64,000 bases of DNA from Allocoleopsis franciscana PCC 7113 (GTDB taxonomy: Bacteria > Cyanobacteriota > Cyanobacteriia > Cyanobacteriales > Coleofasciculaceae). The stretch spans positions 3,870,001 to 3,934,000 of the forward strand of contig NC_019738.1 of the NCBI RefSeq assembly GCF_000317515.1. The letters run 5' to 3'. The number at the start of each line of letters is the position of its first letter. Position 1 is the first letter of the stretch. The notes beneath the pieces are model-generated. The model did not search any database. It was given only the letters and a program-made list of their open reading frames with translations, and was not told the DNA's origin. Positions 15,174 to 36,338 of the stretch are shown here, piece after piece. A program made the translations under genes and the position numbers.

Positions 15174-15683
15174 AAAGATTTATCACCGAATTACATCAAT
15201 TGCAATTTAACAAGGTATTCATACTCAACCGTCCTTCTAGAGAGGGAGGATTGAGTAAATCTTCCTTAAGACAGAATGGTTTTCCCAAAAGGCTAGCTGG
15301 CTTGAAAATCAGCAGTTTTCAACTGTACAAAAGCCTCTTTCAGCTTTTGTATCAGTAATTGAGAGAGATTTACTAAAAAATAGCCGGATTGCTCAATACT
15401 CAAAGGCGTTTTGTGATTTTTTATTCCCCATGATATAAGGTTTTTAGCCATTTCTCTATCCTTAGAGAGATGCAGTAGTCTTTGATGTCTTGACAGGTCA
15501 AAATTATTGTTAAAAAATCTGAAGTTAGATAGATTTTATTTTCTTTTTATAAGTGAATTGAGCGACAGGTAATGAAATCAAGATAAGAGTAATAAATCTG
15601 TCTGACCTAAAAAGGCTCAGTATGCCTAAGGTATGAATTAAATACCGCAGGTCAGATTTTCCTATCAATCTCCCTTGATAAAG
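15174..15683. promoter_or_regulatory. Divergent 510-bp regulatory region upstream of the sugar transporter
   Basis: A perfect nine-base inverted repeat, TACAAAAGC (15326-15334) and GCTTTTGTA (15343-15351), with an eight-base loop, stands mid-gap. It could be an operator or an RNA hairpin. The rest is AT-rich, with no gene. Confidence 0.4.
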
Positions 15684-17069
15684 ATGAAAGATATGAAAGT
15701 ACGAGGCGTCCGATCAAGACGCCTGCAAAGACTGATAAAAAAACTGGGAGTCCCTCGTCTTTTAGGAATCCTTGTTGCATGGATTCTCATCTTCCAAGTT
15801 TGGATACTGCCCGCGCTGACGCAACAGCCTGTCGTCATCACAATGATGTCGCAAGGTCAGGATTTGGCAAATTGGACACCCTTTTTTCAAGAATTTCAAC
15901 AGAAAAATCCCGACATTCGGATCAATGTTGTAGAAGGGCCATTTGATACTAACCTACAAGAGAACCTCCTCACCTCTGCCTTTCTCTTAGGAGACTCGCC
16001 CTACGATGTTCTTAACCTTGATATTGTCTGGGTACCAAAATTTGCCGCCGCAGGCTGGCTAAGGCCTTTGGACGACCGAGTTTCTGCGGAACAACTGGCA
16101 GAAATGGTTGAGAACAACATCGACGGTGGGCGCTATCAAGGTAAACTTTATCGGATGCCGACAAACTCCGATGCGGGAGTGCTTTACTACCGCACAGATC
16201 TGTTAAAGCAAATTGGTGCGAAACCGCCAGAAACCTTTAGCGAGATGGTGGGAATTCTTCAGAACTTGCAGAAATCAGGCGCAAAAGATAATGAGTGGGG
16301 TTATCTCTGGCAAGGCAGGCAGTACGAAGGTGTATCTGCAATGTTTATCGAGGTTCTTGAAGGCTTCGGTGGCTTCTGGGTTAATCCAGATACCCTTGAA
16401 GTCGGTCTCGATCAACCACAGGCCATCGAGGCGGTTAATTTTTTACGCAACACGATTACCCAAGGCATTTCTCCTCGTGGTGTCACTACCTATGGAGAAG
16501 AAGAAACACGCCAAATCTTTCAAAGTGGTGGCGCAGTTTTCTTGCGTAATTGGCCTTATGTCTGGAAATTGGTGAATCAAGAAGACTCAAAAATTCGCGG
16601 TAAAGTTGGCATCCGACCCATGCTTCAGGGCGCAGGTCAAACGGGTGGTTCTTGCTTAGGTGGATGGGGTTTAGGAATATCCACGACGACTAAACACCCA
16701 GAGGAAGCATGGCGACTCATTCAGTACATGACGAGTAAAGATACGATGCGCCGATTTGTTTTAGAAACGGGGTTAATTTCTAGTTACAAATCCCTGTTTA
16801 CAGAGCCGGAAATTATGGCAAAATACCCTCACTTTCCGCAACTTCTAGAAGCCGTTCAACAATCGGTTTTACGGCCTCCTGTTGCCCAATATGCCCAAGC
16901 TTCAGATATTTTGCAACGCTATCTCAGTGCGGCTTTTACGAATGGCATGAATCCACAAGATGCGATGCAGGCCGCAGCAAGAGAAACCCGGAATTTATTG
17001 GGTCGTTTGCAGCGTACTCAAACGTCTCAAGACTCAGCACCTGCCCAAAAGGTAGCAATTCACTCTTAA
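15684..17069 (+). CDS. Sugar ABC transporter substrate-binding protein (CUT1, MalE-like)
   Basis: About 461 residues from the ATG at 15684; an upstream TTG at 15675 is less likely. A basic N-terminus and one hydrophobic helix (LLGILVAWILIFQVWILPAL) form a signal anchor or uncleaved signal, placing the protein in the periplasm. The mature part has the family-1 solute-binding pattern: WTPFFQEFQQKNPDIRINVV, YDVLNLDIVWVPKFAAAGWL, YRMPTNSDAGVLYYRTDLL and the C-terminal EEAWRLIQYMTS. It heads an operon of two permeases and an ATPase. Known cyanobacterial relatives import glucosylglycerol, sucrose or trehalose (GgtBCD/GgtA type). The actual sugar cannot be told from sequence. Confidence 0.9.
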   Translation: MKDMKVRGVRSRRLQRLIKKLGVPRLLGILVAWILIFQVWILPALTQQPVVITMMSQGQDLANWTPFFQEFQQKNPDIRINVVEGPFDTNLQENLLTSAFLLGDSPYDVLNLDIVWVPKFAAAGWLRPLDDRVSAEQLAEMVENNIDGGRYQGKLYRMPTNSDAGVLYYRTDLLKQIGAKPPETFSEMVGILQNLQKSGAKDNEWGYLWQGRQYEGVSAMFIEVLEGFGGFWVNPDTLEVGLDQPQAIEAVNFLRNTITQGISPRGVTTYGEEETRQIFQSGGAVFLRNWPYVWKLVNQEDSKIRGKVGIRPMLQGAGQTGGSCLGGWGLGISTTTKHPEEAWRLIQYMTSKDTMRRFVLETGLISSYKSLFTEPEIMAKYPHFPQLLEAVQQSVLRPPVAQYAQASDILQRYLSAAFTNGMNPQDAMQAAARETRNLLGRLQRTQTSQDSAPAQKVAIHS

Positions 17070-17097
17070 GACGCACACTTCATCCTTCACACTTCTA

Positions 17098-18018
17098 ATG
17101 ACTACTGCACAGGTAAGAGACGTAATTCGAGAACGAGAACAGCGAACTGGATGGTTTTTACTATTACCCGCGATCATCCTGCTGTTATTGGTATTTGCTT
17201 ATCCCATTGGACGGGCTTTCTGGTTAAGTTTATTCACCCAAAATTTAGGCACCCAACTCCAAACAGAATTTTCCGGCTTGTACAACTACGGACGCATGGC
17301 GGGCGATGGCCGTTTCTGGCGAAGTATGTTGAACACGAGCATCTTTACCGCCGCCTCTGTTTTACTGGAATTAGTACTAGGAATGGGCGTGGCTTTGGTA
17401 CTCAATCAATCCTTTAAAGGACGTGGACTAGTCCGAACGATTACCCTCATTCCTTGGGCGTTGCCAACTGCTTTAATGGGACTCGCTTGGGCTTGGATTT
17501 TTAATGACCAATTCGGTGTGGTTAATGACATCCTCATGCGCTTGGGAATCATTAATACGGGAATTACCTGGTTAGGCGATCCCACATTGGCTATGGTGGC
17601 TGTTGTGCTTGCCGATGTTTGGAAAACAACACCCTTTATTGCCATCCTTTTGTTGGCTGGGTTGCAATCGATTTCCACTGACCTTTATGAAGCTCATTCT
17701 ATTGATGGGGCGACTCCCTGGCAGAGTTTTTGGAAAATTACCATTCCCCTATTGATGCCTCAAATTGTGATTGCTGTGTTGTTCCGATTTGCCCAGGCGT
17801 TCGGCATTTTTGACCTCATTCAGGTGATGACTGGGGGTGGCCCAGGGGGAGCTACGGAAACGGTTTCTCTCTATATTTATGGTACCGTGATGCGTTACTT
17901 GGATTTTGGTTATGGGGCGGCACTCGTGGTTGTAACCTTTGTTTTACTCGTCGCTGCTGTGGCAATCGCCGCTTATTTCTTGTCCAGATCCCGTGCTAAT
18001 GCCGCAGGAGCAAGATAG
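17098..18018 (+). CDS. Sugar ABC transporter permease, MalF-like
   Basis: This 306-residue inner-membrane protein has six predicted membrane helices, beginning WFLLLPAIILLLLVFAYPIG. The EAA loop that contacts the ATPase is EAHSIDGATPWQSFWKITIP near residue 200. GGGPGGATETVSLYIY is a common MalF/UgpA-type motif. It starts 28 bp after the binding-protein gene, so it is co-transcribed. It should form the channel with the permease at 18077-18946. The length is standard for CUT1 permeases without the large periplasmic loop of E. coli MalF. Confidence 0.94.
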   Translation: MTTAQVRDVIREREQRTGWFLLLPAIILLLLVFAYPIGRAFWLSLFTQNLGTQLQTEFSGLYNYGRMAGDGRFWRSMLNTSIFTAASVLLELVLGMGVALVLNQSFKGRGLVRTITLIPWALPTALMGLAWAWIFNDQFGVVNDILMRLGIINTGITWLGDPTLAMVAVVLADVWKTTPFIAILLLAGLQSISTDLYEAHSIDGATPWQSFWKITIPLLMPQIVIAVLFRFAQAFGIFDLIQVMTGGGPGGATETVSLYIYGTVMRYLDFGYGAALVVVTFVLLVAAVAIAAYFLSRSRANAAGAR

Positions 18019-18076
18019 TTAATCGTTAAAAGTTCCAGCTTTTTTTGCACTTTCAATCCTTGAATTTTTCAATCCT

Positions 18077-18946
18077 ATGACTATCGCACACGAGCAACCC
18101 GCTGAAAAAGCCTCTACTTTCAACTGGCGGAAAATTCTTTTGCCTATCTCGGTTTTTTTGGTGGTTATTTTCTTCCTGGGGCCAGTTCTCTGGCAGGTAT
18201 TAACTTCCTTCAAAGTCAATTCAGATATCTCTGCTGTTCCCGCTGTTTACTTTCCCACGCGGCTTACCCTCGAACACTATCTGTCTTTATTCGTTCGCCG
18301 CCCATTTACTCTCTATATCATCAATAGTGCGTTTGTTTCCATCACTTCAACACTGCTAGCATTAGCCTTAGGTGCTCCGGCGGCTTATGTCTTGGCACGG
18401 ATGCGTCTACCGGGCGAAAAAATCATTCTTGCCGCTGTCTTAATCGTCACACTATTTCCAGCGGTTCTACTCTTTTTGGGACTGTTAGAAGTAGTCAGAA
18501 TTACCCATTTAGGCAATAACTACTTGGCTCTAATTCTTCCTTACACGGCGATTAATTTGCCGTTAACGATTTTGGTCATGCGGAGTTTTTTCCAACAACT
18601 GCCCAAAGATTTGGAAGATTCGGCAAAAGTCGATGGCTACAATACGGTGGAAATGCTAGTTAGGATTGTGTTGCCGATGACGCTGCCTGCACTGGTAACA
18701 ACTGGCATTCTCACCTTTATCTCTGCCTGGAATGAATTCATTTTTGCCCTAACCTTTATCACCCGTGAATCGATGAAGACGATACCCGTTGCAACCGCTC
18801 AGTTAAGTGGGGCGTCGGCTTTTGAAATTCCCTATGGGCCGATTGCTGCTGCTACAGTATTAGGAACCTTACCTTTAGTTATACTGGTGCTGTTGTTCCA
18901 GCGTAAGATTGTCCAGGGTTTAACCGCTGGTGCTGTCAAAGGATAG
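18077..18946 (+). CDS. Sugar ABC transporter permease, MalG-like
   Basis: This 289-residue second permease has six membrane helices. The periplasmic entry region YFPTRLTLEHYLSLF and the EAA loop EDSAKVDGYNTVEMLVRIVL are characteristic of the MalG branch. It starts 58 bp after the first permease, in the same operon. It is followed by a 289-bp gap before the ATPase gene, unusual spacing within such an operon; a weak hairpin (CCTGA/TCAGG) lies in that gap around 19170-19193, so the ATPase may have its own promoter. Confidence 0.94.
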   Translation: MTIAHEQPAEKASTFNWRKILLPISVFLVVIFFLGPVLWQVLTSFKVNSDISAVPAVYFPTRLTLEHYLSLFVRRPFTLYIINSAFVSITSTLLALALGAPAAYVLARMRLPGEKIILAAVLIVTLFPAVLLFLGLLEVVRITHLGNNYLALILPYTAINLPLTILVMRSFFQQLPKDLEDSAKVDGYNTVEMLVRIVLPMTLPALVTTGILTFISAWNEFIFALTFITRESMKTIPVATAQLSGASAFEIPYGPIAAATVLGTLPLVILVLLFQRKIVQGLTAGAVKG

Positions 18947-19235
18947 TTGGGAGCAAGGCTTTTCTCAGGGTTCGGCTAAGTAAGCGGATATCAATAAAAT
19001 TGCCATCATTTGTAGTCAAACTTTACATAGAAAAGCTCGTGGTATTGCCTGTTACCAACCTACTTATCAAGGCATTCTGCCGACAGCAGGAAGACTCAAC
19101 TGGAGTTTTAAGACATGATTAATTCACCTTTGATTCTTTTCCTTAACTCGTAAATTTTTTGAAAATAGCCCTGAATTGATGGCAGAATCAGGCTTTAATC
19201 TACCTCAAATTTGTGTGAAATAAGTAATAAAAACT

Positions 19236-20384
19236 ATGGCAAACCTTGAACTCATAAATCTCAACAAAACCTACACCCCTAAAGTAATTCCTGTTAAAGA
19301 CATCAGTATAGATGTTGAGGAAGGGGAGTTTCTTACCCTGCTAGGCCCATCGGGATGTGGGAAATCAACCTTACTACGCTTAATTGCTGGGCTGGAGCCG
19401 CCGACCCGTGGCAAAGTGGTGATTAATGGGCGCGATGTTAGCCGTGTTGGCCCTGGCAAGCGCAACATTGCCATGGTATTCCAAAGCTACGCTCTCTACC
19501 CCCACATGACGGTTGCTGACAACATCGCCGCTGGTTTAAAGCTACGCAAAATGCCATCCGATGAAATCCGGCGGCGCGTCGATGATGTAGCCCAGAAACT
19601 GGGGCTACAAAGTTTAATGGATCGTAAACCCGGTCAGATGTCGGGGGGACAGAGGCAACGGGTTGCTCTCGCTCGTGCTCTGGTGCGCCAACCCGATGTC
19701 TTTTTGTTGGATGAACCCTTGAGTAACTTGGATGCTTTGTTACGGGAGCAAGTGCGGGCGGATTTAAAACAGTTATTCGAGAAGCAACAGGCACCTGTGG
19801 TTTATGTGACTCACGACCAGACGGAAGCCATGACCCTTTCTAGCAAAGTGGCTGTACTCTACGACGGGAACTTGCAACAGTTGGCACCGCCCCAGGAAAT
19901 CTACACCCGACCGGCAAATCAATTTGTGGCGGGTTTCGTCGGTAGCCCCCAAATGAACCTATTGACTCTCTCCTGCCAAGGCAACCAGGCGGTCTTAGGT
20001 GAGTTTAGGATTCCGATGCCCAACTTACCCACACCGCCTTCACAGGTTGTTCTGGGCATTCGTCCAGAAGATGTTCACCTTGCTACTCCAGAGGATCGAG
20101 TGACGGTTCAAGGTCGAATTTTCCTGGTGGAAAACTTGGGGATGCAGAATTTAATCAGCGTTATGGTGAAGGGTTCAGAGGTGAGGATACGGGCTTTGTT
20201 GCCGGCGCATCAGGCGTGGGAAGGAGAAGAGGTGAGCCTATCCATGTCACCCCAAGCGATTCATTGGTTTGATGTTCAGACCGGCGATCGCATCCAAAAT
20301 CACTCTTCCGAACAAACCCCTCAGTCTCTCGGTCTTCCTTCCATCGAAAACGGCTCCATTCCATCCCAACGTCAATTGACCTAG
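19236..20384 (+). CDS. Sugar ABC transporter ATPase, MalK/UgpC-like
   Basis: This 382-residue ATP-binding subunit drives import through the MalF/MalG-like pair. Walker A is GPSGCGKSTLL, the signature is MSGGQRQRVALARALVRQP, Walker B is VFLLDEPLSNLD and the switch His is in YVTHDQTEAM. Residues about 235-350 form the regulatory TOBE/OB part (VVLGIRPEDVHLA). Several sugar importers may share such an ATPase in cyanobacteria, so it might serve more than the adjacent permeases. The C-terminal 30 residues are poorly conserved in character. The 3' end abuts a MITE-like element. Confidence 0.95.
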   Translation: MANLELINLNKTYTPKVIPVKDISIDVEEGEFLTLLGPSGCGKSTLLRLIAGLEPPTRGKVVINGRDVSRVGPGKRNIAMVFQSYALYPHMTVADNIAAGLKLRKMPSDEIRRRVDDVAQKLGLQSLMDRKPGQMSGGQRQRVALARALVRQPDVFLLDEPLSNLDALLREQVRADLKQLFEKQQAPVVYVTHDQTEAMTLSSKVAVLYDGNLQQLAPPQEIYTRPANQFVAGFVGSPQMNLLTLSCQGNQAVLGEFRIPMPNLPTPPSQVVLGIRPEDVHLATPEDRVTVQGRIFLVENLGMQNLISVMVKGSEVRIRALLPAHQAWEGEEVSLSMSPQAIHWFDVQTGDRIQNHSSEQTPQSLGLPSIENGSIPSQRQLT

Positions 20385-21098: not shown

Positions 21099-24000
21099 TT
21101 GCAAGTGAAAGAATTTGCTGACCAAATAGCAGCCATGCGCGATCAGCTTCGTCAGTGCGCGGAGCGCACGGCGGCATTAAAGGCGACCAACGAGCAATTA
21201 TTGAGGGAGGTGATTCAACGTCAACGAGCAGAAGAAGAACTAGAGCAATTGCTCTCTCTACTGCGTGGGACGCTTGAAGCAACTGCTGACGGCATTATTG
21301 TCAGCCAAAACGGGAAACACATCGCCACGGTTAATCGAAAGTTTGTCGAAATGTGGAGTATCCCGGAATCGGTCATTACTGCACGAGACTTAAGCCTTGT
21401 GCTGCCATTGATTTTGGAACAACTCAAAGACCCAGACGCTTTTCTTCGTGAAACACAAGGCTTATTATCTCATCTAGACGCAGAAGGTCATGGGATCTTT
21501 GAGCTGAAAGATGGGAGAATCTTTGAGCGTTATTCGCTGCCGCATCGGATCGGGGGAAATATTGTTGGCAGAGTTTGTAGCTTTCGGGATGTCACTCTCG
21601 CCAAAAGAAAAGAGGCGGAACTCGCAGAAAGCCAACGCCGGCTTGCCTCACTTATTAATTCACTTCCAGGCATTGCTTTCTCCTGCTCAAACGACCCGGA
21701 ATGGTCAATGCGATACCTCAGCGAAGGCTGCCTTAACTTGACTGGTTATACCAATGAAGAACTCTTAGAAAGTGGGGTAAATTCGTATAACTCTATTACA
21801 CATCCCGAAGACTTACCAAAAGTTCTCAGTACGCTGGAGCAAGCTGTTGCCAACAAGCAACCTTATGTGGTTGAGTATCGTATTCATACCCAATCAGGTG
21901 AAGAGAAATGGGTCTGGGAAAAAGGAAGCGGAGTATTTGACAACAATGGACAGGTCATAGGAATCGAAGGGTTCATCACTGATATTAGCGATCGCAAGCA
22001 AAGCGAAAAAGCCTTTCAAGAAAAAGAGGAGTTTCTAGAGTTAGTTCTGGAAAATATCCCTCAGTTCATCTTTTGGAAAGACAGAAATTCAGTCTACTTT
22101 GGTTGCAATCGCAACTTCGCCCTAGCGGCTGGCTGCTCTACTCCAGAGGAGATTGTTGGCAAAACCGACTACGATTTGCCTTGGAAGCAGGAGGAATCCG
22201 ACTTTTTCCGGGAATGCGACGCTCGTGTGATGGAGACGGATACAGCCGAATATCACATTATTGAACCCCAACTCCAAGCCAATGGCAAACAGGCTTGGCT
22301 GGACACGAACAAGGTTCCACTTCATGATGCACAAGGAAAGGTAGTCGGCGTTCTTGGTACTTACGAAGATATTACTGAACGCAGACTCTCAGAGCTAGAA
22401 CTTCAACAAAGCGAACAAAAGTACAGAAATCTCTTCCACAATTCCTTAGTAGGGATATTTCGCAATAGCCTCGTTGATGGTACAGTTTTGGATGCGAACG
22501 AGGCTGTATTAAAGATGTTTGGCTTCGATGCTTATGAAGGAGTAAAATCGGTTGATTTGTATGCCAATCCAGCCGATAGAGAGATTCTTAAACAGCAGCT
22601 ACTTGAGAAAAGATTTGTTGAAAATTTTGAAGTGCAAGCTCGCCGAAAAGACGGTTCTTTATTTTGGGTTTCTTACTCTGGCAAACTATATGCCAAAGAG
22701 GGTTACTTGGAAGGTGTGATGATTGACATCACCGAACGCAAGCAGGCAGAAGAAGCACTTAAGACAGCCAAACAAGAGCTAGAAATTCGAGTTGAAGAGC
22801 GTACCACCGAATTAAGGCAAGCGATTCGGAAATTGCAAGGTGAGATTGAGGAGCGCAAGCGGACTGAGGCGGAACTACAGCGAAGTGAAGCGAGATTTCG
22901 GGACTTAGCCTGTCAGGAAGCACTACTCAACCGCCTTGCCAGTCAGATTCGCAACTCCCTGGCTTTGGAGACGATTTTGGAAACCGCCGTACAGGAAATT
23001 TACAACCGATTAGCGATTGATGTCTGTGTCTTTGCCTGGTACAGGAAAGACGGAACTTCTTCCGGTTGGGATGTGGTTAAAGAGGCCAAAAATCCCGATC
23101 TGCCCAGCTTTTTAGGTTTATATCCCTTAGAAAGCTGGCGTCCATTCACCTGTAAACTGGTTGATCGCGAAGAGTTCCAAGTCGATCAGGTTACTCAAAA
23201 CCATGAGACCGTGCAGCAGACGCGACTCCCCTATGGGACGACGGCTCTATTATCACTGCCCGTTGAAACGCAATCGGGTCAACTGGGAACCCTAACTTGT
23301 GGGCGTTTGGTTTCTTGGCAATCTTGGACGGACGAAGAACTGGAACTGTTACAAGCGGTTGCGAACCAACTGGCGATCGGGATAAACCAAGCACAACTTT
23401 ACGAACAAAGTCGCATTGCCGCAACTACAGCTCAAACCAAAGCGACTCAGCTTGAAGCGGCACTGCGCGAACTCCAACAAACTCAATCGCAACTGATTCA
23501 ATCGGAAAAAATGTCCTCTCTAGGGCAGCTAGTGGCAGGTGTTGCCCATGAAATTAACAATCCCCTAAACTTCATCCACGGCAATCTCACCCATATTAAT
23601 CAGTATGCCAAAGACTTACTCAATCTCATTCAACTTTATCAGGAATACTACCCCCACCCTGCACGAGAAATTCAAGCTGAAATAGAAGCCATTGACGTAG
23701 ATTTCCTCAAAGAAGACTTACCTAAAATTTTGTCTTCGATGACGATGGGAACCGATCGCATTCGCCAAATCGTTTTATCTTTACGTAACTTCTCCAGGGC
23801 TGAACAAACTGACAGAAAATGGGTTGACATTCATGAAGGTCTTGATAATACCCTACTGATTCTTGGTCATCGTCTGAAAGATAAAGCGCATCGTCCTAGC
23901 ATCGAAATCATTAAAGAGTATGGCAACTTGCCTTTAGTGAGGTGTTACCCCGGACAACTCAATCAGGTATTCATGAATATCCTCACCAATGCGATTGATG

Positions 24001-24428
24001 CCCTAGAAATGAGGCATGAGTCATGGGAACTGGGTGATGAGCGTGGGAGTTCCTATTTTCAATTGCCAACTCCCCAATCCCAATTACCCAAGATTTGGAT
24101 TCGTACCGAAGTGAACGGAAGTCATCAGTTAGTCATTCGGATCGCTGACAACGGTCTAGGGATGACGCAGGAGATACAGCGAAGAATTTTTGACCCGTTT
24201 TTTACAACGAAACCCATTGGTTCAGGTACAGGTTTAGGCATGTCCATTAGCTACCAAATTGTTGTACAAAAACATGGGGGTCAATTGAAATGTATTTCTG
24301 CACCGGATCAGGGCACAGAGTTCTTGATTTATATTCCCATTCAGCCGCCAAAAAGTAGTGGATTACTTCAGGAAGGATTGGCAGGGACTTTGACTCATCA
24401 AGAGGTCATCAACTTGACAGCTTGCTAA
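21099..24428 (+). CDS. Multi-PAS, GAF sensor histidine kinase
   Basis: This 1109-residue soluble kinase starts at a TTG with a strong AGGAGG six bases upstream, which decides the start. An N-terminal coiled coil is followed by about four PAS-type sensor domains (starting near 50, 185, 312 and 440), a coiled coil near 560-605 and a GAF domain near 615-775. The transmitter has [13 protein letters not shown] (His817), an ATPase N-box [16 protein letters not shown] and a glycine box [16 protein letters not shown]. There is no transmembrane segment, so the signal is intracellular (redox, light or small molecule; not readable here). No receiver is attached; the next gene, 145 bp downstream, supplies one. 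It is probably the first gene of a four-kinase cluster. Confidence 0.93.
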
Positions 24429-24573: not shown

Positions 24574-25680
24574 ATGACCAAGATTCTAGTGATTGAAGAC
24601 GAGGACGATATCCGTGAAAGCTTAGAGGACATACTCACGGCTGAGAATTTTGAAGTCATTACAGCAGAAAATGGCCGCATCGGGATGCAATTAGCACAGG
24701 AGAATGTACCCGATTTGATTATTTGCGACATTATGATGCCAGACCTTGATGGTTACGGTGTTGTAGAACAACTGCGTCAGTCCCCATCTACTGCAACAGT
24801 TCCCTTCATTTTTCTCACAGCCAAAGCGACACCAGTAGATCGCCGTCAGGGAATGGAACTTGGAGCGGACGATTTTCTAACCAAGCCATTTACGATTCAA
24901 GAACTGCTCAGAGCTATCTCTGCTCGATTGAAAAAGCAGGTAGCTTTTGAAAGAAAAGCTCAAAGCCAACTCGATGAGTTACGCGGCAACATTACCCACG
25001 CACTGCCGCACGAACTGAATACCCCGTTGAATGGCATCCTCAGTTACTCAGGACTCCTCTTTGATGACTACGATTCATTTGAGCGTGAGGAAGTCTTGGA
25101 AATGTTGCAAGGCATTCACACCTCTGCTCAGCGTTTGTATCGACTAACCCAAAATTTTCTCCTCTCAGCCGAGCTAGAACTCATCGCAACAAATCCAGAG
25201 CGAGTTAGATCGTTGCGTAGTAGTGGGATGAATTGCAATACCCAAAGGATTATTACAGATATCGCCACTCAAACCGCTAAAAGTGCCAAAAGAGAATCCG
25301 ATTTACAATTAGAACTGCAAGAGGCGATCGCTCAAATTTCGGAACTAAGATTTAAGAAAATTGTGGAAGAGATAGTGGATAACGCCTTCAAATTTTCAAC
25401 GCCTGGAACCTCGGTTCGTGTTATCAGTTTTTCTGACAATAATACCTATAACCTCCACATTATTGATCAAGGACGAGGGATGACACAAGAACAGATTGCT
25501 AACATGGGCGTCTATATGCAATTTGAGCGCAAACTCTACGAACAGCAAGGCTTTGGGTTAGGTCTGAGTCTGGCTAAACGGTTGATCGAATTGTACGGTG
25601 GAAAATTAATAATCGATAGTATTCCAGAGCAACAGACTAGTATGAATGTGGCTCTGCCAATGGCAACTTCCAGCCTGTGA
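24574..25680 (+). CDS. Response regulator - histidine kinase hybrid (REC-HK)
   Basis: A 368-residue protein with an N-terminal receiver (KILVIEDEDDI; phospho-acceptor Asp52 in ICDIMMPDLDG; Lys in FLTKPF), then a kinase part with LPHELNTPLNG (His146) and an ATPase domain (EEIVDNAFKFSTPG, FGLGLSLAKRLIELYGGK). The residue before the phospho-His is Pro rather than the usual Ser. This layout fits a phosphorelay intermediate that takes phosphate on its receiver and controls its own kinase. It lies between two large sensor kinases on the same strand, so signalling within the cluster is likely but unproven. Confidence 0.92.
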   Translation: MTKILVIEDEDDIRESLEDILTAENFEVITAENGRIGMQLAQENVPDLIICDIMMPDLDGYGVVEQLRQSPSTATVPFIFLTAKATPVDRRQGMELGADDFLTKPFTIQELLRAISARLKKQVAFERKAQSQLDELRGNITHALPHELNTPLNGILSYSGLLFDDYDSFEREEVLEMLQGIHTSAQRLYRLTQNFLLSAELELIATNPERVRSLRSSGMNCNTQRIITDIATQTAKSAKRESDLQLELQEAIAQISELRFKKIVEEIVDNAFKFSTPGTSVRVISFSDNNTYNLHIIDQGRGMTQEQIANMGVYMQFERKLYEQQGFGLGLSLAKRLIELYGGKLIIDSIPEQQTSMNVALPMATSSL

Positions 25681-25885: not shown

Positions 25886-28800
25886 ATGCAGCGATTCCTT
25901 CAAGCATTCTTTGTTTCTAATCCCTTTATTCCTCACGGGCATTGCTATCTGTGGAAACCTGGACTAGTAGGACTTCATCTCATTTCTGATGTCCTGATTG
26001 CGATCGCCTACTTTTCCATTCCTCTCACACTCATCTACTTTATTCGCAAGCGGCAGGATATACCGTTCAATAAGATTTTTCTGCTGTTTAGCGCCTTTAT
26101 TGTTGCCTGTGGCACCACTCATCTAATGGAAGTGTGGACACTTTGGCATCCTATCTACTGGCTATCTGGGTTGCTTAAAGCAATCACAGCTATTGTCTCA
26201 CTCTATACCGCTTTAATGCTGGTCTCTCTTTTGCCCAAAGCGCTTGAGCTACCCAGTTTAGCGGCTACTAATCAGGCACTACAGACTGAAATTGTTGAGC
26301 GCCAGAAAAGTGAAGCCAAAAGCCGAGCCATATTGGCAACCATCCCCGACTTAATGTTCAAAACCAATGCTGAAGGTGTTTATCTAGAGTATTTTACTCC
26401 TCACCGAACAGGTGACCTTCTGCCTCAAACCGTCGATCCGATCGGTAGACGGATGTCAGAATTGTTACCACCAGATATTGCCCAGCGGCATATAGAACAC
26501 ATTCAGCGGGCGATTGCAACCAATGAACTGCAAACCTATGAACAACAGATTCAGATCGGGGATAGGTTTCAGGATGAGGAAGTTAAAGTGATGAAATGTG
26601 GGGATGACAAAGTCTTGTTTATGTTCCGCGATATTAGCGATCGCAAACAAGCCGAGAAAGAACGAGAGCGATCACAAATGCTGCGGCTTGAGTTACATCT
26701 ATTGGAGAACATCCTGGAAATCTCCCTCGCTGGTTACTTCGACTGGGATATTCCGGGTGATCGGGAGTACTTAAGCCCAACCTTCAAGCGGATGTTTGGC
26801 TATGATGACGATGAATTGCCCAATACACCCCAGACGTGGCAAAGTCTGATTTTGCCAGAGGATTTGCCGGGGGTTCTTGAAAGCTTCGACCAACATGTCA
26901 CAAGTCGTGGACAGATACCCTATTACAACGAGGTGAGATATCGACATAAGAATGGTTCTACCATTTGGGTCATCTGTTCGGGTCGCGTTATTGAGTGGGA
27001 TAGGGACGGTAACCCACTCCGGATGATTGGTTGCCACATTGATATTACCGAACGTAAACAAATAGAAAAAGCCCTGAAAAGCAGTGAAGCTCGTTACCGT
27101 GCCATTCTTGAAGATCAAACAGAACTGATTGTTCGGTTTTTGCCAGATACCACCATTGTGTTTGTAAATGAAGCATACTGCCGCTACTTTGGGATACAGC
27201 GAGAGGAGTTGATTGGCAAGAGCTATGCACCCATAATCTTTGAAGACGATCAGGAAACTGTTGCTCAAGCAATACAATCCATGAGTGCCGAAAATCCTAC
27301 CGTCACCATCGAAAATCGGGTCATCATCAATGGTGAAATTCGCTGGACTCAGTGGATTAACCGCATGTTATTTGACGAACTGGGGCAGTTTGTGAAGTTG
27401 CAATCTGTTGGGCGAGATATCACCGAACTCAAGAAAACTGAAGAAGCTCTGCGAATCAGTGAGGAACAACTGGGGAACCTCTCAGATCGGCTGGCACTGG
27501 CGATCAAGTCAGGCGCGATCGGCATTTGGGAATGTCATGTTGGCTGTCATGTACCGATCTGGGATGACCGCATGTATGAATTGTACGGACTGCAAACCTC
27601 TGACTTCAGCGGCCCCCTCGACGAGGCATGGAGAAAAGCAGTCCATCCAGACGATCTGGCTCCAGTTAGAGCTGCTGTTCGTCTTACATGGCAAGGCAAG
27701 AAGGAATTTGATACAGAATTTCGCGTCGTTCATCCAGATGGCACCATCCGTTTTCTCAAAGCTCACGCTCTCGTTCAGCGCAATGAGCAGGGGGAACCGC
27801 AATGCATGGTGGGCATCAACTATGACATTACGGATCGCAAGCAAGCCGAACAGGCTTTGCAAGAACTCAATACGGCGATGCAGAATGCTGTTGAAGGTAT
27901 TTCTCGTATCGATATCAATGGATACTATATATCTATGAACCGGGCATACGCCAATCTGTGTGGTTACGAACCGGAAGAACTGATTGGGCAACTGTGGCAG
28001 CAAACCGTACATTCAGACGATCTCCCCGATATGATCGCGGTTTATCAACAAATGCTGGAAACAGGCAAAGTTGAGGCAGAAACCAGAGGCGTTCGCAAAG
28101 ACGGTTCCATTTTCTACAAACAAGTGACGATGATTACGGCTTACGATCAGCAGGGCAATGTCACAGGAAATCATTGTTTCATGAAAGACATTAGCGATCG
28201 CAGATACGCAGAAGCCCAACTGCGGCAAACCAACGTCCAACTTGCCCGCGCCACCCGCCTCAAAGATGAATTTCTGGCGAATATGAGCCATGAACTGAGA
28301 ACTCCCCTCAATTCCATTCTGGGTATGTCTGAAAGTTTTCAGGAAGGCGTATTCGGTTCTATCAATGAGCGGCAGGCCAAGGCAATTGCTACTATCGAGC
28401 GCAGTGGCAAGCATCTGCTCGAGCTGATCAACGACATCTTAGACTTATCTAAAATCGCATCCGGCAAACTGGAACTGGAAATCAGCAATGCTCCCGTCAA
28501 GAGTTTGTGTGAGTCTAGTCTGGCCTTTATCAGACAGATGGCACTCAAGAAAAACATTCGCCTGAATACCCGCATTCCCAAAACCCTTGGCAGCATCCAA
28601 GTCGATGAGCGCCGCCTGCGTCAGGTGCTGATTAACCTACTCAGCAACGCCGTCAAGTTCACCCTGGAAGGGGGTACTGTGACGCTAGAAGTCCGGCTTG
28701 AAGCTGGGGAAGCTGAAGAAGCAACTTCTCCTGTGTCCCCCTCATCTCCCTCATCCTCCCCGCACCTCTGCTTTTCCATCATTGATACCGGCATCGGTAT

Positions 28801-29833
28801 TTCCCCTGAAGACATTGGTAAGCTATTTCAGCCCTTTATCCAACTTGACAGTCGCCTCAACCGCCAATACACCGGGACGGGTTTAGGTCTAGCACTAGTA
28901 CAGCAGATTATGGCTCTGCATGGAGGAACAGTCTCGGTGAGCAGTGAAGTAGGACAGGGCAGTTGTTTTACCGTCCGCCTTCCCTACCGTACCAGCGATA
29001 GTACGCCAGCGACGCCGATCACAGCTTCATGTCCCTCCCCTAAATTAGCCAGCGATAATGTTCAAGTTCTAATTATCGAAGACTCAATTCCCGCCACAGA
29101 TCAAATTATCCGCTACCTCAGCGAACTGGGTATGCAATCTATTGTCTATCCACGCGGTGAAGGAGCAGTAGGAAAAGTAAAGCGGGTTCAGCCTGCTCTA
29201 GTCATTCTAGACCTGCTACTGCCGAATATGTCAGGGTGGGATGTACTCGCTCAACTCAAAACCAATCCACAAACCCAAAAAATTCCCGTTATCATCATTT
29301 CAGTGATGGACGAGCGCAGTAAAGGACTGAGTCAAGGAGCGTTTGAACATCTGGTTAAACCGATTACTCGCGCTCAATTTCAGGCAACTTTAGAGAAATT
29401 GCGATATCCTGCTCCTGCCGGATCACCGAGTTTGATAGGAGTATCGACCCCTGCACGGGAGAAGCCTCTAATTCTGGTAGCAGAAGATAATCAGGCAAAC
29501 ATTGATACAATGTCCGACTATCTGGAAAACCGAGGCTATCAACTCCTGCTCGCCAAAAATGGACAAGAAGCGATCAACTTAGCCAAAAGCCAACGACCCG
29601 ATCTAATTTTGATGGATATTCAAATGCCAGGAATGGATGGTCTGGAAGCGATACGCCGCCTCCGTGATGAAGAGCAGCTTACTCGCTTGCCCATTATTGC
29701 CTTAACAGCACTAGCAATGCGGCATGATCGAGAAAAATGCCTAAGCGCTGGTGCGAATGAATATTTGGCTAAACCTGTAAAACTAAAACAACTGACAGCA
29801 ATGATACAACAACTTTTAAAAGGTAATATCTAG
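25886..29833 (+). CDS. Ethylene-receptor-like hybrid histidine kinase (EBD-PAS-HK-REC-REC)
   Basis: About 1315 residues from the ATG at 25886 (a TTG at 25844 would add 14). Residues 1-125 contain three membrane helices matching the ethylene-binding domain of plant ETR1 and Synechocystis Slr1212: LISDVLIAIAYFSIPLTLIY and IVACGTTHLMEVWT. The key residues are Asp35, Tyr42, Cys75 and His79, with spacings identical to ETR1 Asp25, Tyr32, Cys65 and His69; Cys and His hold the copper that binds ethylene. Several PAS domains follow (about 130-780), then [15 protein letters not shown] with His802, the ATPase domain, and two receivers (Asp near 1110 in ILDLLLP; Asp1244 in LMDIQMP). It should sit in a membrane and respond to ethylene or a similar ligand. 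Confidence 0.93.
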   Translation: MQRFLQAFFVSNPFIPHGHCYLWKPGLVGLHLISDVLIAIAYFSIPLTLIYFIRKRQDIPFNKIFLLFSAFIVACGTTHLMEVWTLWHPIYWLSGLLKAITAIVSLYTALMLVSLLPKALELPSLAATNQALQTEIVERQKSEAKSRAILATIPDLMFKTNAEGVYLEYFTPHRTGDLLPQTVDPIGRRMSELLPPDIAQRHIEHIQRAIATNELQTYEQQIQIGDRFQDEEVKVMKCGDDKVLFMFRDISDRKQAEKERERSQMLRLELHLLENILEISLAGYFDWDIPGDREYLSPTFKRMFGYDDDELPNTPQTWQSLILPEDLPGVLESFDQHVTSRGQIPYYNEVRYRHKNGSTIWVICSGRVIEWDRDGNPLRMIGCHIDITERKQIEKALKSSEARYRAILEDQTELIVRFLPDTTIVFVNEAYCRYFGIQREELIGKSYAPIIFEDDQETVAQAIQSMSAENPTVTIENRVIINGEIRWTQWINRMLFDELGQFVKLQSVGRDITELKKTEEALRISEEQLGNLSDRLALAIKSGAIGIWECHVGCHVPIWDDRMYELYGLQTSDFSGPLDEAWRKAVHPDDLAPVRAAVRLTWQGKKEFDTEFRVVHPDGTIRFLKAHALVQRNEQGEPQCMVGINYDITDRKQAEQALQELNTAMQNAVEGISRIDINGYYISMNRAYANLCGYEPEELIGQLWQQTVHSDDLPDMIAVYQQMLETGKVEAETRGVRKDGSIFYKQVTMITAYDQQGNVTGNHCFMKDISDRRYAEAQLRQTNVQLARATRLKDEFLANMSHELRTPLNSILGMSESFQEGVFGSINERQAKAIATIERSGKHLLELINDILDLSKIASGKLELEISNAPVKSLCESSLAFIRQMALKKNIRLNTRIPKTLGSIQVDERRLRQVLINLLSNAVKFTLEGGTVTLEVRLEAGEAEEATSPVSPSSPSSSPHLCFSIIDTGIGISPEDIGKLFQPFIQLDSRLNRQYTGTGLGLALVQQIMALHGGTVSVSSEVGQGSCFTVRLPYRTSDSTPATPITASCPSPKLASDNVQVLIIEDSIPATDQIIRYLSELGMQSIVYPRGEGAVGKVKRVQPALVILDLLLPNMSGWDVLAQLKTNPQTQKIPVIIISVMDERSKGLSQGAFEHLVKPITRAQFQATLEKLRYPAPAGSPSLIGVSTPAREKPLILVAEDNQANIDTMSDYLENRGYQLLLAKNGQEAINLAKSQRPDLILMDIQMPGMDGLEAIRRLRDEEQLTRLPIIALTALAMRHDREKCLSAGANEYLAKPVKLKQLTAMIQQLLKGNI

Positions 29834-30077: not shown

Positions 30078-31214
30078 ATGGACATTCAACCCTCTATCTT
30101 AGTCATTGATGATGAAGTGGATAACTTCGATGTGATTGAAGCTCTGCTGGATAGTGAAAACTATCAGTTACATTATGCTTCTAGTGGTCAACAAGCTCTT
30201 GCGCGACTCAATAATTTTCAGCCTGATGTAATTTTGCTGGATGTAATGATGCCAGAACTCGATGGCATGGAAGTCTGTCGGCGCATCAAAGCGAACCCAC
30301 AATGGAAAGTCGTTCCTATCATTATGGTGACGGCACTAACAGCAAAGGAAGACCTCGCTCTGTGTTTAGCGGCAGGCGCAGATGACTTTATTAGTAAGCC
30401 CGTCAATGGCATCGAATTACGAGCTAGAGTTCATTCCATGTTGCGGATAAAGCAGCAGTATGACAACGTACAAGCCCTGCTAATCCTGCGGGAGGATATG
30501 GTTAACTCACTGGTGCATGACCTACGAAACCCCCTCACCAGTATTGTCCTATCTACTGATAGTCTGCAACTCTTTGGTGTGTTATCTGAAAAGCAAGAAC
30601 GAAAGGTCGGTCAAATTGCGAACAATGCCCGAAAACTACAATCGTTAATTGATAATCTGCTGATAATGGCAAAGCTAGAATCCGGTAAAATGGTTCTCAA
30701 TTACAAAGAATTAGATCTGGATGAACTTTGTCAGTCCGCCATAGCAGAGTTTGAGTCAATTGCTGCTAAAAAGGATGTGGCTCTTGTCAGTGAATTGCCC
30801 AAAAGCGTGAGGGAAGCGGGACAAAGTTCAGCGGCAATAAACTTAAGATCGTCACCGAGTAGACTGGTTCAAGTAGATACCGCTATTTTTCGTCGAGTAC
30901 TAGACAATTTACTCTCTAATGCCATTAAATTCTCGCCATCAAACAGTCAAGTGGTTCTCAAAACTACATATTTAGGAGTAGGAGGAGCCAAAGTTCAAGT
31001 GATCGATTCTGGGCCGGGAGTTCCTAATCACTTAAGGGAAAGTATTTTTGAGAAGTATGAGATTGGGACTCCGATGCCAGGGCTTTCACAACTAGGTTTA
31101 GGATTAGCGTTCTGTAAAATGGCAATCGAAGCCCATCACGGCAGCATTACTGTTGAAAATAGTCATCCACAAGGCGCTATATTTACAGTATTTATTCCAT
31201 TCAATTCGAGGTAA
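30078..31214 (+). CDS. Response regulator - histidine kinase hybrid (REC-HK)
   Basis: A 378-residue protein with the same order as the one at 24574-25680. The receiver has ILVIDDEVDN, Asp55 in LLDVMMPELDG and Lys in FISKPV. The kinase part has NSLVHDLRNPLTSIVL (His147), an N-box FRRVLDNLLSNAIKFSPS and LGLGLAFCKMAIEAHHG. HDLRNP is the HWE/HisKA variant common in cyanobacterial phosphorelay kinases. It follows the ethylene-receptor-like kinase by 244 bp and may be its partner; this is inferred from position only. No DNA-binding output domain is present anywhere in the cluster. Confidence 0.92.
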   Translation: MDIQPSILVIDDEVDNFDVIEALLDSENYQLHYASSGQQALARLNNFQPDVILLDVMMPELDGMEVCRRIKANPQWKVVPIIMVTALTAKEDLALCLAAGADDFISKPVNGIELRARVHSMLRIKQQYDNVQALLILREDMVNSLVHDLRNPLTSIVLSTDSLQLFGVLSEKQERKVGQIANNARKLQSLIDNLLIMAKLESGKMVLNYKELDLDELCQSAIAEFESIAAKKDVALVSELPKSVREAGQSSAAINLRSSPSRLVQVDTAIFRRVLDNLLSNAIKFSPSNSQVVLKTTYLGVGGAKVQVIDSGPGVPNHLRESIFEKYEIGTPMPGLSQLGLGLAFCKMAIEAHHGSITVENSHPQGAIFTVFIPFNSR

Positions 31215-34730: not shown

Positions 34731-36338
34731 GTGCCTTATCTGATCTACGATCCTGAGACTCCTAACGAAAGCATTCAAGAATTATGCCTGGGTACAAACA
34801 CCATCGGACGCGATGAGGACAGCCGTATCTTTGTCCAAGATCAGAGTCTTTCTCGTTACCATGCAGAGATTGCGATCGGCTACCATCAGGCGTTTATTAC
34901 CGATCTGCACAGTCGCAACGGTACCTTTGTCAACGAGATTCAAATTGACCATTGCGAACTCAAGGATGGGGACAGCATTCGTTTTGGGAAGGTGGTTTGC
35001 CAATTTGTTGAGCGACTTAGAAGCGATCAACAAGGGTGTTTGGGAGAGGAAGACTCGACGATCTCTATTGTTAAACAAGTTTCGCCCCAACCCAGCGTTA
35101 CAGCGATCCAACACTTACTCGATGAGGATGGAGTCAGTGGCTCAGTCATTCGCCTACAACAGCAGGATACAACGCAGCGGGCCGTCGATAAGTTGAAAAT
35201 TTTGCTAGAAGTGAGTAAACAGCTTTCCACTCCTGAAGAACTTGAGCGACTGCTCAATAAAATTCTCGGCCTCCTGCTGGAAATTATGAAGGTCGATCGA
35301 GTAGCAATCCTCCTCGTCAATGAGTATACCGGATGTCTTGAACACAAAGCTGTCAAATTACAGCCGCGTATTCCACCGGATGAGCAGTTTTATAGCCGCA
35401 GAATTACTAATTTGGTACGCCACAGTGGAGAGGCTATCTTAATCACGGATGCCTGTATTGATCAGCGATTTAGTGACTCGGACTCAATTCTGGGACAAAA
35501 GATTCATGCATCGATGTGCGTACCCCTAAAACCGAGGGAAGAAGTAATTGGGGTGTTATATGTAGATAATTTATCGTTGTCCAATATTTATTTAGACGAA
35601 GATTTGGAATTTTTGACGGCTCTTGCCAACCAATCTGCGATCGCGATTGATAATTCCCGTCTCTACAAAAAGATCCAAGAAGAAGCTGTCATCCGTGATA
35701 AATTAGAACGCTTTTTTCCTCAAAGTGTCAGTAAAAAACTGAGGGAAGAAGGCAATTTAGAGATTGTGGAAACAGAAGTAACAGCCCTATTTGCTGATAT
35801 TAGTGACTTCACAAAAATGTCTTCCCTGATGGAACCGCATCAAGTCATTGAGATGCTCAATGAGTACTTTAAAGTTATGGTAGAGGAGATTGTGTTTCCC
35901 TATGAAGGCACGCTCGAAAAATATATAGGGGATGCCTTACTCGCGATTTGGGGTGCGCCTTATCGCAAAGAAGATGATGCACAACGAGCTGTTCGAGCCG
36001 CCATTGAGATGCAATGGGCGGTTTGCCGTCTGAATGAGGACTGGCTCAATCGGCGCAACTTACAAATTCAAATTCATATTGGCATCAATACAGGAAAAGT
36101 GGCAGCCGGAAATATTGGCTCAGAACGATTGATTCAATATGCAGCGATCGGGGATACGACGAATGTAACGAGTCGAATTTGTAGTGTGGCTCAAGCGGGC
36201 GAAATTCTAATTTCTCAAAGTACATTTGACAAAATTAGAGATTGGGAATTGCCTCTTGAACAACTCGATCTGATTTCGGTAAAAGGTAAAGATCAGCCCT
36301 TACAACTTTATCGCCTCCTCTGGGAAAATTGGCCATGA
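34731..36338 (+). CDS. FHA-GAF-adenylate/guanylate cyclase
   Basis: A 535-residue soluble cyclase from a GTG at 34731. Residues 1-95 are an FHA phosphothreonine-binding domain with all signature residues (Gly26-Arg27, SRYH at 41-44, Asn63-Gly64). A GAF domain spans about 155-315 (ELERLLNKILGLLLEIMKVD to NQSAIAIDNSRLY). The class III cyclase domain has VTALFADISDFTKM (Asp356) and KYIGDALLAIWG (second metal Asp near 401), so catalysis is likely. cAMP is the expected product in cyanobacteria; substrate choice was not settled from residues. The FHA domain suggests recruitment by a Ser/Thr kinase, of which three types are encoded in this window. Confidence 0.95.
   Translation: MPYLIYDPETPNESIQELCLGTNTIGRDEDSRIFVQDQSLSRYHAEIAIGYHQAFITDLHSRNGTFVNEIQIDHCELKDGDSIRFGKVVCQFVERLRSDQQGCLGEEDSTISIVKQVSPQPSVTAIQHLLDEDGVSGSVIRLQQQDTTQRAVDKLKILLEVSKQLSTPEELERLLNKILGLLLEIMKVDRVAILLVNEYTGCLEHKAVKLQPRIPPDEQFYSRRITNLVRHSGEAILITDACIDQRFSDSDSILGQKIHASMCVPLKPREEVIGVLYVDNLSLSNIYLDEDLEFLTALANQSAIAIDNSRLYKKIQEEAVIRDKLERFFPQSVSKKLREEGNLEIVETEVTALFADISDFTKMSSLMEPHQVIEMLNEYFKVMVEEIVFPYEGTLEKYIGDALLAIWGAPYRKEDDAQRAVRAAIEMQWAVCRLNEDWLNRRNLQIQIHIGINTGKVAAGNIGSERLIQYAAIGDTTNVTSRICSVAQAGEILISQSTFDKIRDWELPLEQLDLISVKGKDQPLQLYRLLWENWP

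Follow-up and report, generated by a model that had tools for sequence, protein, structure and literature searches.

Does the gene at 25886-29833 of Allocoleopsis franciscana PCC 7113 encode an ethylene receptor and, if so, how did it acquire its sensor and to which protein does it pass the signal? The gene lies in the window, the whole 64,000-nucleotide stretch that was analysed (NC_019738.1, positions 3,870,001 to 3,934,000), and coordinates are window positions unless a locus is named. We consider it quite probable that the product is a cyanobacterial-type membrane ethylene receptor signalling through its hybrid kinase to the 30078-31214 protein, with an ethylene-binding domain (EBD) that was joined to an existing module.

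Domain organization of the 25886-29833 protein

The domain order EBD-PAS4-HisKA-HATPase-REC-REC was called with our own HMMs beside Pfam, and the features are as follows.

25886..29833, + strand: EBD-PAS(4-5)-HisKA-HATPase-REC-REC hybrid histidine kinase, 1315 aa, single intact ORF
25964..26251, + strand: EBD (ETR1_N), aa 27-122 (Pfam 149.6 bits, residue check, AF2 helices)
26765..28198, + strand: four clear PAS domains, aa ~294-387, 403-512, 556-660 and 676-771 (Pfam PAS-fold matches, own HMMs)
28262..28990, + strand: HisKA (793-860) and HATPase_c (907-1035), aa 793-1035 (Pfam, above cut-off)
29066..29809, + strand: two receivers, aa 1061-1166 and 1196-1308 (Pfam, motif check)

The ORF starts with ATG, and an alternative TTG is located 42 bases upstream. 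The several PAS domains and two receivers announced by the sequence-only reading were all found: in addition to the four clear PAS domains there is a probable fifth at aa ~130-290, with a weaker match than the others, and both receivers keep the acidic pocket, the phospho-Asp and the Lys. The HisKA domain has the H-box SHELRTP at 801 and HATPase_c has its N and G boxes, so that the protein possesses the cytoplasmic histidine-kinase output of ETR1-type receptors. Pfam searches up to E 0.001 found no GAF domain, which sets the protein apart from plant subfamilies 1 and 2, and no GAF/PHY match of the kind that would define a SynEtr1/UirS-type light receptor.

The ethylene-binding domain

The profile search of the N-terminal domain that had been proposed as a check gave a clear answer. 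Residues 27-122 matched ETR1_N with 149.6 bits (E = 3e-44, Pfam cut-off 27), the best-scoring match of the genome, while the same model had no matches in 14 control genomes. The residues required for ethylene binding by AtETR1 are D25, Y32, I35, P36, I62, C65 and H69 (PMC6586836, PMC11819568), and when the sequences were aligned all seven were identical (D35, Y42, I45, P46, I72, C75 and H79); the equivalent of Lys91 is also kept, as K98. The positions and ETR1-like spacings reported before for Asp35, Tyr42, Cys75 and His79 were exact. Core identity to AtETR1 was 43 of 89 aligned positions, calculated with an AtETR1 N-terminus checked by its published residue numbers only, and identity to most of the intact cyanobacterial EBDs aligned was 65-76%. 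Bacterial EBDs with the same residues, SynEtr1 and AzoEtr1, bind ethylene (PMC6682694, PMC11819568), and in AzoEtr1 the residue numbers D35, C75 and H79 coincide with those found here (PMC11819568).

An AlphaFold2 monomer model of the domain, built on 37 related EBDs, was of moderate confidence (mean pLDDT 78, pTM 0.55, block pLDDT mostly 77-88). It placed helices at 25-55, 62-87 and 91-120, and hydropathy also indicated three helices. D35 and Y42 are on helix 1, C75 and H79 on helix 2, and K98 on helix 3. The Cys/His pair had been pictured as facing each other across helices; this picture has to be given up, for in the model both residues lie on the second helix, one turn apart (i, i+4, from helix positions only). 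In published ETR1 models the pair lies where the two monomers meet, and each monomer holds one copper (PMC6586836). A Foldseek comparison of the model with the PDB returned nothing significant, in agreement with a PDB sequence search that found no EBD structure. The profile match, the seven residues and the three modelled helices all support the original expectation that the receptor is likely to bind copper and ethylene. As far as its sequence can tell, the protein is a membrane sensor kinase that carries a complete plant-type EBD.

Distribution of the family

Of 386 genomes sampled from the whole phylum, 90 have the ETR1_N domain, in up to nine copies, as do 49 of the 57 closer relatives. 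Both A. franciscana (7.97 Mb) and its sister species have eight copies; the eight A. franciscana proteins differ in domain architecture, and seven keep the Cys/His pair. The double-receiver architecture was described in the sequence-only reading as less described, which holds for the literature only. In genomes, two receivers were present in 14 of the 97 EBD proteins examined, seven of which also have at least three PAS domains; EBD-PAS kinases with two receivers recur in Chlorogloeopsis and Amazonocrinis, with the same domain order in Chlorogloeopsis fritschii. These counts led us to reject the view that no other protein has this architecture. SynEtr1, GeiEtr1, GeiEtr2, AzoEtr1 and fungal and plant relatives have already been described (PMC6682694, PMC6508509, PMC11819568, PMC5285503). 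Since the family is widespread, the architecture recurrent and relatives published, the 25886-29833 protein is an ordinary cyanobacterial member of the known ethylene-receptor family.

Other members of the family have different outputs. EBDs with intact residues are fused directly to GGDEF or GGDEF-EAL in four loci (L020, L045, L046 and L061), which suggests that ethylene may control c-di-GMP in some cyanobacteria. In two loci (L101:7883-13071 and L102:3952-9311) a gene for a 517-520 aa EBD-HATPase protein stands directly before a long gene that encodes EBD-GAF-PAS-GAF-kinase-REC, and both products keep their copper ligands; gene coordinates suggest this tandem pair in two more genomes, which belong to the same family.

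Loss of the copper ligands was observed as well. Cys, His or both were absent in 21 of 124 sampled EBDs, a sample in which low scorers were deliberately over-represented. The low-scoring homologues, found on kinases and GGDEF-EAL proteins (L133, L171-L190), often do not have the equivalents of Cys65 and/or His69. One paralogue on (GAF-PAS-PAS-)GGDEF-EAL, present in A. franciscana (C1:1899053-1899337), at L095:6970-10689 and also in L166, L182 and L184, retains neither the copper ligands, Cys and His, nor the Asp (H/A-Y-I-S-T-S/N-E/Y), and its Lys91 is replaced by Glu. The A. franciscana copy of this EBD is 80% identical to that of the sister species, indicating that the domain is kept rather than decaying, and perhaps it feeds another signal into c-di-GMP.

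Gene neighbourhood and the probable REC-kinase partner

Three more kinase genes adjoin 25886-29833 on the same strand, which bears out the kinase cluster noted before.

21099..24428, + strand: PAS-PAS-PAS-GAF-HATPase kinase; a homologue precedes the pair in one genome (G008, L126)
24574..25680, + strand: second REC-HisKA-HATPase protein; 51-55% identical homologues beside the pair in L139, L142 and L148
30078..31214, + strand: REC-HisKA-HATPase protein, 378 aa, conserved neighbour of the kinase core

The intergenic gaps of 25886-29833 are 245 bases to 30078 and 205 bases upstream, and promoter and terminator scans gave results at chance level. With the full-length protein as query, the top matches in relatives covered aa ~770-1312 (kinase and receivers, up to 58% identity) and had no counterpart of the EBD. 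In all 13 of the loci L113-L125, a homologue of 30078-31214 (51-56% identity) followed the hybrid kinase. A search with the 30078 family led to 51 loci, window included, and in 37 of them the gene immediately upstream encodes a HATPase-REC hybrid kinase. The hybrid kinase had an EBD at its N-terminus in only three of these 37 linked loci (the window, Pantanalinema L011 and L133), and the L133 domain does not have the equivalents of Asp25 and Cys65. In the six N-termini that were scanned there was CHASE3 in four (L113, L119, L121 and L123) and HAMP in two (L115 and L124); that of L130 carries CBS. The loci were picked partly by similarity to the window and sampling was uneven, so that these fractions are not population frequencies. 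Because its family adjoins this type of kinase core across relatives, 30078-31214 is proposed as the probable phosphorelay partner of the 25886-29833 kinase. More generally, of 92 EBD genes whose downstream sequence was long enough, 48 have a receiver-bearing gene next on the same strand, and in 21 of these cases it is a REC-kinase of some sort; many Nostocales EBD kinases are of the HisKA_2 type with a REC-PAS-kinase neighbour.

Two other features are close to the cluster. Sugar-type ABC transporter genes lie upstream (15675-20384), and in Nostoc foliaceum genes 62-77% identical to them (L037:12210-16378) are close to an EBD kinase, on the other strand, maybe by coincidence. An FHA-GAF-adenylate/guanylate cyclase gene is located at 34731-36338.

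Origin of the receptor

In a tree of 94 kinase-core sequences the window core fell in the module-kinase clade (37 members, 99/97), and with the REC-kinase orthologue 30078-31214 directly downstream the locus is a member of this module. The nearest sequence was L131, with 79% identity over aligned columns and no EBD. The other 55 EBD kinases, with A. franciscana's own among them, fell outside the module clade. This placement led us to reject the candidate explanation that the window kinase is a plain paralogue of the other EBD kinases of its genome. Best matches also differed by segment: the EBD matched L009-L013, one PAS domain L128 (72%), another PAS domain other EBD proteins (~60%) and the kinase L131. 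At the level of sequence, the protein is a mosaic made by domain exchange. As 34 of the 37 linked modules are without an EBD, and the seven N-termini examined have CHASE3, HAMP or CBS, the ethylene sensor is best read as having been swapped onto an existing hybrid-kinase/REC-kinase relay. We give about even chances to a wider generalization, in which cyanobacteria use the EBD as a plug-in sensor, interchangeable on a conserved hybrid-kinase/REC-kinase relay with inputs such as CHASE3, HAMP-linked or CBS, and ligand-less sister EBDs have turned to another signal.

Proposed mechanism and alternatives

By homology, the three transmembrane helices would bind ethylene with Cu(I) coordinated by Cys75 and His79, and this would alter the activity of the cytoplasmic hybrid histidine kinase; by analogy with SynEtr1, ethylene may inhibit it. 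The PAS domains probably bring further inputs. The conserved linkage suggests a route by which phosphate could travel from the H-box His (aa 802) via both attached receivers to the REC-kinase 30078-31214. Tree and gene order show a past joining of the EBD to a kinase/REC-kinase module that bears other sensors in most relatives. A search of the genome for an ethylene-forming enzyme, run without a positive control, gave no match and carries no weight.

Three other readings were weighed. The ETR1_N homologue could have moved away from ethylene, binding copper or another small ligand or serving as a mere membrane anchor or dimerisation element. Such drift exists, as seen in the 21 of 124 EBDs devoid of Cys or His, among them a paralogue of the same genome and one of the three EBD modules. 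However, the window EBD keeps all seven residues and the Lys, stays within 65-76% identity of most intact cyanobacterial EBDs and is the top ETR1_N scorer of its genome, and we regard this reading as very unlikely. The EBD may instead have been ancestral to the module, inherited in the window and lost in relatives. The grouping of the three EBD modules with L131 (93/55) would allow one gain followed by one loss, and the EBD tree, built on an alignment too short to place the window's EBD, recovered a single origin in 41% of bootstraps. Yet, with 34 module kinases lacking an EBD versus three having it, many losses would be needed, and ancestral inheritance appears quite unlikely when compared with gain by domain swap.

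Finally, ethylene could be bound and the signal passed to 24574-25680, 21099-24428 or an unlinked regulator, the 30078 REC-kinase being a mere neighbour. Two further kinases do adjoin the gene, some relatives have a REC-kinase like 24574-25680 next to the pair, and the sister species (G386) has no 30078 orthologue at the threshold used. Against this, 37 of the 51 loci have the 30078 family right behind this type of core, irrespective of the sensor at the N-terminus, and we judge a different partner to be rather unlikely. The preferred reading is a receptor assembled by sensor swap that would signal to 30078-31214.

Comparison with known systems

Bacterial ethylene receptors are little studied and their downstream partners largely unknown; here, a partner is proposed from gene linkage. 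A genome with seven copper-competent receptors, as judged by Cys/His, and one ligand-less copy is suitable for tests of the role of multiple receptors in a bacterium.

SynEtr1 (Slr1212) of Synechocystis sp. PCC 6803 is also cyanobacterial and, like the protein described here, couples an EBD at its N-terminus, binding residues included, to a histidine kinase in the cytoplasm, but it contains a photosensory domain of phytochrome-like type and nothing follows its kinase domain (PMC6508509), whereas no GAF was found here and two receivers follow. GeiEtr2 of Geitlerinema sp. PCC 7105 shares the EBD with the seven binding residues, PAS, kinase and a C-terminal receiver; it differs in having one receiver, a GAF domain and 1025 aa (PMC6682694) as opposed to two receivers and 1315 aa. 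The Chlorogloeopsis fritschii PCC 6912 protein (L009, EBD 75% identical) and its relatives L018 and L080 have the same or a very similar domain order, but their kinase cores belong to a separate clade and a lone REC gene follows instead of a REC-kinase. The Pantanalinema sp. GBBB05 protein (L011, EBD-PAS-PAS-HisKA-HATPase-REC) has the same module, with a 64% identical REC-kinase downstream and an intact EBD, but two PAS domains and one receiver by domain search compared with four to five PAS domains and two receivers. Arabidopsis ETR1 has the same EBD residue spacings, with a GAF domain in place of the PAS repeats and one receiver, and acts at the ER membrane in the plant pathway. The CHASE3 (L113, L119, L121 and L123), HAMP (L115 and L124) and CBS (L130) kinases have the same core and a downstream REC-kinase (51-64% identical) without the EBD. 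Owing to the sensor swap, this kinase and its partner occur in nature both with the ethylene domain and without it, which offers ready-made controls.
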